In this document: one piece after another, positions 20,860-44,026 of the stretch
Layout of the letters: every line of letters begins with the position of its first letter
How positions within the stretch are numbered: position 1 is the stretch's first letter
Assembly: GCA_016929395.1 (NCBI GenBank)
Contig: JAFGIX010000060.1
Location: forward strand, 1 to 64,000
DNA length: 64,000 bases
From: Candidatus Zymogenus saltonus
GTDB lineage: Bacteria > Desulfobacterota > Zymogenia > Zymogenales > Zymogenaceae
Direction: 5' to 3'
Translations under genes and position numbers: made by a program
Notes under the pieces: generated by a model
Databases searched by the model: none
What the model saw: the letters and a program-made list of their open reading frames with translations, nothing else
What the model was told of the DNA's origin: nothing

Positions 20860-21423
20860 GTGTATTCTACAGCGGAGTTCAGAAGGGGATTGAAGATAGA
20901 GATAGACAAGAAGCCCTATATAATCGTGGAATTTCAACACGTAAAGCCGGGGAAGGGGGGGGCGTTTGTCCGCACCAAGCTGAGAAACCTGATAAACGGG
21001 GCGGTCACGGAAAAGACCTTCAGGTCCGGCGAGAAAGTTGACAAACCGGACCTCCTCGAGAAGGAGATGCAGTATCTCTATCGTGACGATCAGGGATTTT
21101 ACTTCATGGATATGGAAAACTACGAGCAGATATTCATTGAGGAGGATAAGGTGGGGGATTCGGCGGATTTCCTTTCCGACGGGCTCGAAATTACCGTCCT
21201 CTATCACGAGGGGAACCCCATCTCCCTTGAGCTCCCGACCTTTGTGGAGCTCCCGATCGAAAAGACCGATCCGGGGGTTAGGGGAGATACCGCCACCGGT
21301 GGCACAAAGCCTGCTACGCTGTCGACCGGATTGGTCGTGCAGGTGCCCCTGTTTCTCAACGAGGGGGATCTCTTGAAGATAGACACGAGGACCGGCGAGT
21401 ATATCGAGCGCATATCCAAATAG
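20860..21423 (+). CDS. efp: Translation elongation factor P
   Basis: This 187-residue protein starts at GTG with a G-rich ribosome site. EF-P relieves ribosome stalling at polyproline. The KOW-like domain I carries the loop HVKPGKGGAF with the modifiable lysine at position 32. The two OB domains follow, with FMDMENYEQI and the C-terminal GDLLKIDTRTGEYIERI signature. No epmA/epmB-type modification genes are in the window. Confidence 0.96.
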   Translation: MYSTAEFRRGLKIEIDKKPYIIVEFQHVKPGKGGAFVRTKLRNLINGAVTEKTFRSGEKVDKPDLLEKEMQYLYRDDQGFYFMDMENYEQIFIEEDKVGDSADFLSDGLEITVLYHEGNPISLELPTFVELPIEKTDPGVRGDTATGGTKPATLSTGLVVQVPLFLNEGDLLKIDTRTGEYIERISK

Positions 21424-42708: not shown

Positions 42709-43536
42709 ATGAAAGACCTGATCAAAAGGGCGGCATGGGACATCTTCGGCGCCCAGCACGTGGTGGCGTTGACCGGCGCAGGCGTGTCCACCGAGTCGGG
42801 CATCCCCGATTTCAGGAGCCCGGGCGGCCTCTGGGAAAAATACGATCCGATGGAGTTCATGTATGACCGTTTCATCTCGGACCCGAAGAGGATATGGGAG
42901 ATGAGCACCAAGATGAAGCACGAGGGCGATCTCGACATGGCCGAGGCGAAGCCGAATCCGGCCCACATCGCCCTTGCGGAGTTGGAGGCAATGGGTTTTA
43001 TCAAGTGCGTAATCACCCAAAACGTGGACAACCTCCATCAAAAGGGTGGGAGCAAAGACGTAATCGAGTTTCACGGAAACCTCCTGTTCGGCCGCTGCAT
43101 CAGTTGTTCCCTGCGGTTTTCGCTTTCCGAGGTCGAGGAGATCATAGCCAAAAACGGCCTTCCCCCGAGGTGCAAAAAGTGCGAGGGTATCTTGAAGCCG
43201 GACGCCGTATTCTTCGGCGAGCCTATACCGCCGGAGGCCCTCCAGAGGTCGATTAGCGAGGCTAAAAAGGCGGACGTGATGATAGTGGCCGGGACTTCAG
43301 CGGTGGTCTATCCAGCGGCGGAGCTGCCCTTCGTCGCAAAGAGGGGGGGCGGATTCTTCTCCACATCAGTTACGGAGCCGTCTCCGAACGTCGGTGCCGT
43401 GGTTATCGAGGTCAACGATGAGCCGACGCAGCTGACGGGAAGGGTGTCTGACTACCTGATTCAGGGAAAGGTCGGCACGATCCTCCCGGAGATAGTCGAG
43501 GAGGTAAAGGCGCTTATGAAGGATAAGACACATTAA
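42709..43536 (+). CDS. Sirtuin NAD-dependent deacylase
   Basis: This 275-residue protein is a Sir2-family deacylase. Motifs are LTGAGVSTESGIPDFRSPGG for NAD binding, TQNVDNLHQ, and the catalytic His122 in EFHGN. A structural zinc site is formed by Cys130, Cys133, Cys155 and Cys158. The residues that mark class III (SIRT5-like desuccinylase: Tyr and Arg in the YxxR motif) are not obvious, so acyl preference is open. It is monocistronic in appearance. Confidence 0.93.
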   Translation: MKDLIKRAAWDIFGAQHVVALTGAGVSTESGIPDFRSPGGLWEKYDPMEFMYDRFISDPKRIWEMSTKMKHEGDLDMAEAKPNPAHIALAELEAMGFIKCVITQNVDNLHQKGGSKDVIEFHGNLLFGRCISCSLRFSLSEVEEIIAKNGLPPRCKKCEGILKPDAVFFGEPIPPEALQRSISEAKKADVMIVAGTSAVVYPAAELPFVAKRGGGFFSTSVTEPSPNVGAVVIEVNDEPTQLTGRVSDYLIQGKVGTILPEIVEEVKALMKDKTH

Positions 43537-43556: not shown

Positions 43557-43594
43557 TGTGTCAGAATTGACACACACATGTGTCAGCTGTGACA
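43557..43594. promoter_or_regulatory. Tandem palindromes TGTCA-N4-TGACA, candidate enhancer-binding sites
   Basis: Site 1 (43557-43574) is a perfect 7-bp inverted repeat TGTGTCA/TGACACA around GAAT. Site 2 (43581-43594) is TGTCA/TGACA around GCTG. Their centres are 22 bp apart, two helical turns, so both face the same side. They lie about 90-130 bp upstream of a sigma-54 promoter, the usual position for dimers of an NtrC-family activator. The binder is not known. Confidence 0.65.
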
Positions 43595-43683
43595 TAAAAT
43601 CCGTCAAAAAATTCAACACCTTGTCTTGGCTTTCTTAACTACCTAATATCATTGAAATCTTTTCTATGAAAAAAGGGCTGTTG

Positions 43684-43700
43684 TGGCAAGGATTTTGCTA
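43684..43700 (+). promoter_or_regulatory. Sigma-54 (-24/-12) promoter
   Basis: The sequence TGGCAAGGATTTTGCTA has GG at 43685-43686 and GC at 43697-43698 with exactly 10 bases between, matching the TGGCAC-N5-TTGCW sigma-54 consensus closely. Transcription would start near 43710, about 60 bases before the ATG of the small gene. Two palindromes upstream fit activator sites. Confidence 0.75.
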
Positions 43701-43768
43701 CTTATACAATACAGCGGACAGCCTGGCAGTGGGTTTTTTTTAGTATTATCGGGAGTTCTTCAAAAAAA

Positions 43769-44026
43769 ATGGTTGCAGACAGCAAGAAGGTAGACATACA
43801 AAAATCGGTAAACGGCAAGGTTAACGGGAATGGGAAACTTCTCGGTAACGGGGGCCTTAACCACTGCGCCAATGGGAACTCCAAGGGAATGGATCTTCTC
43901 GCTAAGACGATGTACCGGGAGTTGAAAAAGAACGGGTACGACCCGGGCCAAATCCTCGACTTCTCCGGGAAACTGGTCGGCTTTGTACACGAAGACATTA
44001 CCTCAACAGGCAAAGAGCATAAATAA
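43769..44026 (+). CDS. Small protein of unknown function under a sigma-54 promoter
   Basis: I do not recognise this 85-residue protein. The first 40 residues are rich in Asn, Gly and Lys (NGKVNGNGKLLGNGG and HCANGNSKG) and probably disordered, with one Cys. The last 45 residues look like a compact helical domain (MDLLAKTMYRELKKNGYDPGQILDFSGKL). There is no signal or membrane segment. GGGAG lies 13 bases ahead of the ATG. It appears monocistronic, with an empty stretch after it. The sigma-54 promoter and activator-like sites suggest conditional expression, for instance in starvation, motility or development. This is inference from regulation only. Confidence 0.7.
   Translation: MVADSKKVDIQKSVNGKVNGNGKLLGNGGLNHCANGNSKGMDLLAKTMYRELKKNGYDPGQILDFSGKLVGFVHEDITSTGKEHK

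Follow-up and report, generated by a model that had tools for sequence, protein, structure and literature searches.

A conserved sigma-54 promoter with putative enhancer sites precedes a gene for a small helical-hairpin protein

The usual targets of sigma-54 are recognizable pathways, such as nitrogen, flagella, pili, and transport, and sigma-54 promoters require an enhancer. In the locus described here, a promoter of this kind stands before a lone gene for a small protein. The window, i.e., the whole 64,000-nucleotide stretch of DNA that was analyzed, represents contig C60 from the 3.76-Mb genome (G000) of an uncultured bacterium. The gene, P0001, is an open reading frame of 85 codons on the plus strand (43769 to 44026), the length given by the sequence-only reading, and has homologs in a second genome of the same family (G003) and in another family, f32. 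It forms a single-gene unit between a Sir2-like gene (42709 to 43536) and a GAPDH gene (coding from about 44385) that is followed by PGK and TPI genes, the GAPDH, PGK, and TPI genes being named by eye from their translations. In the window and the f32 loci that were read, no gene for an enhancer-binding protein (EBP) adjoins the hairpin gene, and the predicted folding of the 5' leader RNA was no more stable than that of shuffled sequences (z, 1.05).

The promoter element, TGGCAAGGATTTTGCT, occupies 43684 to 43699 on the plus strand, with GG at 43685 to 43686 and GC at 43697 to 43698. The -24 GG and -12 GC are thus 10 bases apart in a TGGCAC-N5-TTGC context, which is the arrangement of a sigma-54 promoter, a kind of promoter already known. 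The GG-N10-GC element noticed from the sequence was recovered, and its distance to the gene was revised from about 60 bases to 70 nt between the GC and the start codon; transcription would be expected to begin at about 43709 to 43712. With 33 of 35 weighted points, the element had the top -24/-12 score on both strands of the window. The pattern TGGCA-N6-TTGC has its sole copy in the window at this promoter, with 0.22 copies expected and occurrences in 19 of 100 shuffles, and by itself it is not significant in the window. The rpoN gene was found in G000 (PF04552; E value, 5.9e-62), G003, and G034, and G000 encodes many NtrC-type regulators.

The element rises above chance because it is conserved in homologous upstream regions. 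When 395 genomes of the phylum were searched with a profile, homologs turned up mainly in f32, where the gene occurs in 21 of 24 genomes, distributed over 9 of 10 genera; the relatives with names are deltaproteobacterial MAGs and include one from Syntrophaceae. An earlier single-sequence scan of genome contigs had found no relative. The pattern TGG[CT]A-N6-[ACT]TGC[AT] occurred no more than 150 nt from the start codon in all 19 homolog upstream regions tested, with 0.09 expected from dinucleotide shuffles; these regions include those of the window and G003 and are related sequences, not 19 independent events. The -24/-12 element was again present at f32 loci beyond the 19. Inheritance of the element as unselected DNA is implausible because the proteins have diverged, to about 25% identity with the window protein in the lowest case. 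In G003, the ortholog lies behind the same Sir2 gene, i.e., at the same locus, and its promoter has a perfect -24/-12 element, TGGCACATCAATTGCA. No such promoter was found at a distant homolog in G045, at a degenerate second copy in G400, or at two GAF-fused hairpin genes in G324 and G342. G001 and G002 were uninformative because neither an ortholog of the Sir2 neighbor nor the hairpin gene was found in them. Comparison, rather than the pattern alone, thus supports a real sigma-54 promoter, and the -24/-12 element, the presence of which in homologs was the main check proposed in the sequence-only reading, precedes the gene in every ortholog examined in two bacterial families.

Upstream of this element lie two inverted repeats, for which no strand is assigned: site 1, TGTCAGAATTGACA, at 43559 to 43572, and site 2, TGTCAGCTGTGACA, at 43581 to 43594. 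As first described, both are exact TGTCA-N4-TGACA palindromes with centers 22 bp apart. Site 1 extends to TGTGTCA-N4-TGACACA (43557 to 43574) and is also readable as TGT-N12-ACA. Site 2 lies 89 bp before the -24 TGG; it is exact in G003 as well, where the palindrome TGTCATGGGTGACA stands about 91 bp before the TGG, and a decayed partner 22 bp away, TGTTTTTATTGACA, is the counterpart of site 1 at the same spacing. A genome-wide search, which the sequence-only reading had suggested, returned exact copies at four places in the 3.76-Mb genome, two of them at this gene (reversed control, 0). The sole other intergenic copy (C38:6978-6991) is in front of a two-CW-domain gene, whose perfect sigma-54 site, TGGCACATAAATTGCA, follows the copy at a distance of about 265 bp. 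Across the 395 genomes, the composite of palindrome and sigma-54 element yielded 10 matches, compared with none in the reversed control; most of these stand before diverse genes, including a pilin gene, and 3 of the 10 fall within long open frames, one of the three being the pilin promoter. The TGTCA palindrome therefore appears, from its distribution, to behave like a class of sigma-54 enhancer with varying targets.

Alternatively, a repressor or some other regulator that has no connection with sigma-54 might bind the palindromes; the -24/-12 element would then be real, with its activator site lying elsewhere. In line with this, none of the other strong sigma-54 promoters of G000, except that of the two-CW gene, contains TGTCA-N4-TGACA. 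Against it, no better conserved candidate for an upstream enhancer was found, the distance to the -24 TGG is nearly the same in G000 and G003 (89 to 91 bp), and the palindrome co-occurs with sigma-54 elements across the phylum at the rate given above. We regard this alternative as unlikely and favor the palindromes as sites of a sigma-54 activator.

Of the upstream features described for the window, GG-N10-GC recurs in both families, whereas the palindromes are confined to the window's own family and were not found in f32 promoters. These have TATTGCA-N7-CACA instead, placed in almost every promoter 91 to 94 bp ahead of the GG and retained whether or not the upstream neighbor is a divergent membrane-protein gene. 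When TATTGCA-N7-CACA was searched for together with the -24/-12 element in 11 f32 genomes, the hairpin gene was recovered in 11 of 11, with three extra matches and none in the reversed control, and the motif looks like a putative enhancer dedicated to one gene. An IHF-site search between enhancer and promoter gave matches of at least 8/9 in 11 of 20 promoters (3.7 expected), these promoters being related in sequence, the matches lying mostly at one fixed f32 position, and the match in the window being weak. The divergent gene, present in many f32 genomes such that the putative enhancer lies between both genes, encodes a membrane-anchored protein of about 210 to 230 amino acids with no family match (L034, 5152 to 5790; L048, 5144 to 5836).

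The product of the gene has an Asn/Gly/Lys-rich N terminus (residues 1 to 37) that is predicted to be disordered; this stretch had been described as a tail. In the AlphaFold2 model of the window protein, it is followed by a helical hairpin (helices 38 to 54 and 59 to 80; block-mean pLDDT, 88 to 96). The f32 proteins, of 74 to 75 amino acids, have conserved N-terminal NLDIILKNMD and C-terminal DRLLIG sequences, and an f32 model shows the hairpin (block-mean pLDDT of at least 88) with an additional N-terminal helix. Only the hairpin is common to the two groups, the window and G003 proteins having Asn/Gly-rich N termini instead. dN/dS values in f32 were mostly 0.04 to 0.13, and by this comparison the protein is real and under purifying selection. 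Searches against Pfam, NCBIfam, and PHROG gave nothing above chance, in keeping with the initial view of an unrecognized protein, and Foldseek searches of the PDB with the window and f32 models gave no significant structural relative; the family is apparently undescribed in the libraries searched. A PDB match to the TAL-like protein BurrH (E value, 1e-7) was rejected as the sum of many subthreshold hits to a repeated 18-residue motif. In G324 and G342, GAF-domain proteins (L126, 8482 to 9336; L127, 8597 to 9400) have a C-terminal domain homologous to the hairpin, and this fusion would fit the hairpin as a binding or output module. The second copy in G400 (L142; G400:C193:10885-11061) is divergent, lacks the DRLLIG end, and looks like a decaying duplicate.

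A more specific role for the hairpin would be that of a Spo0E-like phosphatase. It would inactivate a phosphorylated response regulator, and if this were the EBP of its own promoter, as is possible, a negative-feedback loop would result. Size and hairpin architecture are the same, the second helix locally resembles the Spo0E-like structure 2c0s (EKYGFTHHKVISFSQELD versus KKNGFSnkdIIdFSkELL), and the Pfam SpoOE-like profile (PF09388) matches 2 of 20 members. However, the E values of these matches, 0.88 and 0.044, are not significant, and no Spo0E structure was among the Foldseek results. The Asp of the SQELD signature is essential in Spo0E, and it is not conserved here: the window protein has SGKLV, and in the f32 sequence, SKEM(L/I)D, the Asp is displaced by one position toward the C terminus. 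Spo0E proteins are, moreover, known from spore-formers. A phosphatase of this type is improbable on these grounds, and a hairpin that binds a protein partner is preferred.

Several other loci with sigma-54 elements were noticed. The second-ranked sigma-54-like site of the window, TGGCACAAAGCCTGCT, lies at 21300 to 21315. The two-CW-domain genes of G000 (NF045718; L067, G000:C38, 5294 to 5542 and 6370 to 6618, minus strand) are in tandem, each with its own sigma-54 promoter and with the TGTCA-N4-TGACA copy at the upstream gene, and a sigma-54 promoter also precedes a CW-type gene of G003 (L078). At L071 (G000:C3) and L080 (G003:C18), a strong sigma-54 promoter is followed by a response-regulator gene and then, as judged by eye, by a roadblock/LC7-type gene; these genes perhaps belong to a motility or polarity system. 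In G327 (L148/L055, G327:C5), TGTCA palindromes and a sigma-54 site precede a pilin gene and then two pilin-like genes.

The last of these loci has the same composite as the hairpin gene, and PilR of Pseudomonas binds TGTC repeats, so that the hairpin gene could be imagined as a member of a PilR (type IV pilus) regulon. This membership is disfavored because the pilin genes of G000 and G003 (L073 to L075 and L079) have sigma-54 promoters without TGTCA-N4-TGACA; other composites also precede unrelated genes, and we consider PilR control highly improbable. A chance pattern before a spurious open reading frame, suggested by the appreciable chance rate of the -24/-12 pattern alone in 64 kb, is refuted by the 19-of-19 conservation, the purifying selection, the same-locus ortholog in G003, and the near-core status of the gene in f32.

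The favored account is thus a sigma-54-dependent single-gene unit with an NtrC-type activator at the palindromes and a partner-binding hairpin as its product. A dimeric NtrC-type EBP would bind the two helically phased palindromes and loop to the sigma-54 polymerase parked at 43684 to 43699, and the hairpin gene would not be expressed before the EBP had been activated by a signal. Its product would be small and soluble, consisting of a flexible N terminus and a helical hairpin, and would most likely serve as a regulator or adaptor by binding to another protein; action as an enzyme or structural fiber is less likely. Within this account, comparative sequence establishes the promoter and the fact that it is conserved, as well as the conserved sites upstream of it and the selected protein. 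We infer that an EBP rather than another factor occupies the palindromes, and its identity and signal belong to the same conditional part of the model; small size, fold, and domain fusion suggest the adaptor role. The account as a whole is judged to be probable, with moderate confidence.

A broader reading is offered more tentatively, as a possibility that we would not favor over narrower ones: the hairpin proteins may form an undescribed family dedicated to sigma-54, in which every member has an EBP of its own, with few or no other targets, and binds and tunes a signaling or transcription partner, e.g., a response regulator. If so, they would represent a novel type of small regulator made on demand and conserved across deltaproteobacterial lineages, also in GAF-fused form. 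A dedicated enhancer and promoter would be spent on one uncharacterized protein of about 75 to 85 residues that is near-core in the uncultured family f32 and also occurs in a second family. Between the families, the putative enhancer sequence changed and the type and position of the switch were kept, which would be a clear example of a shift in activator specificity. With gene, promoter, and site defined, the locus offers a testable orphan regulon and adds a protein family where the searched databases have none.

Known systems resemble the locus in part. Spo0E-like phosphatases (PF09388; 2c0s) share the small helical hairpin, with an 18-residue local resemblance, and differ in the nonsignificant profile match, the nonconserved SQELD position, the phylum, and the regulation. 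In the PEP-CTERM/PrsR system, single-gene units have long upstream regions and a motif about 60 bp before the sigma-54 site (PMC1569441). The hairpin gene is likewise a single-gene unit with a long upstream region and a motif before its sigma-54 site, but motif 1 of the PrsR system ends in TTTACA (PMC1569441) and the hairpin protein has no PEP-CTERM anchor. PrsR regulation was rejected on motif 1 and on the best match to TIGR02915 in the own genome, 426 bits against a cutoff of 502.6. In the Desulfovibrio vulgaris regulome, the regulons of most EBPs comprise one to four operons, several Desulfovibrio EBPs bind TGT/ACA half-sites 9, 11, or 12 bp apart, and the -24/-12 consensus is tGGcacg...tTGCt (PMC4641369). 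The locus is like these deltaproteobacterial sigma-54/EBP regulons in its -24/-12 consensus and upstream TGT/ACA half-sites (PMC4641369); unlike them, it has an orphan small protein as its target, next to which neither an EBP gene nor a metabolic gene stands in the loci that were read, and TGTCA-N4-TGACA is not printed in the text of that study. The two-CW-domain proteins (NF045718) are unrelated in sequence and have Cys/Trp motifs of their own, but they are likewise small orphans, encoded by the same genomes and preceded by sigma-54 promoters, and one of them has the palindrome too.
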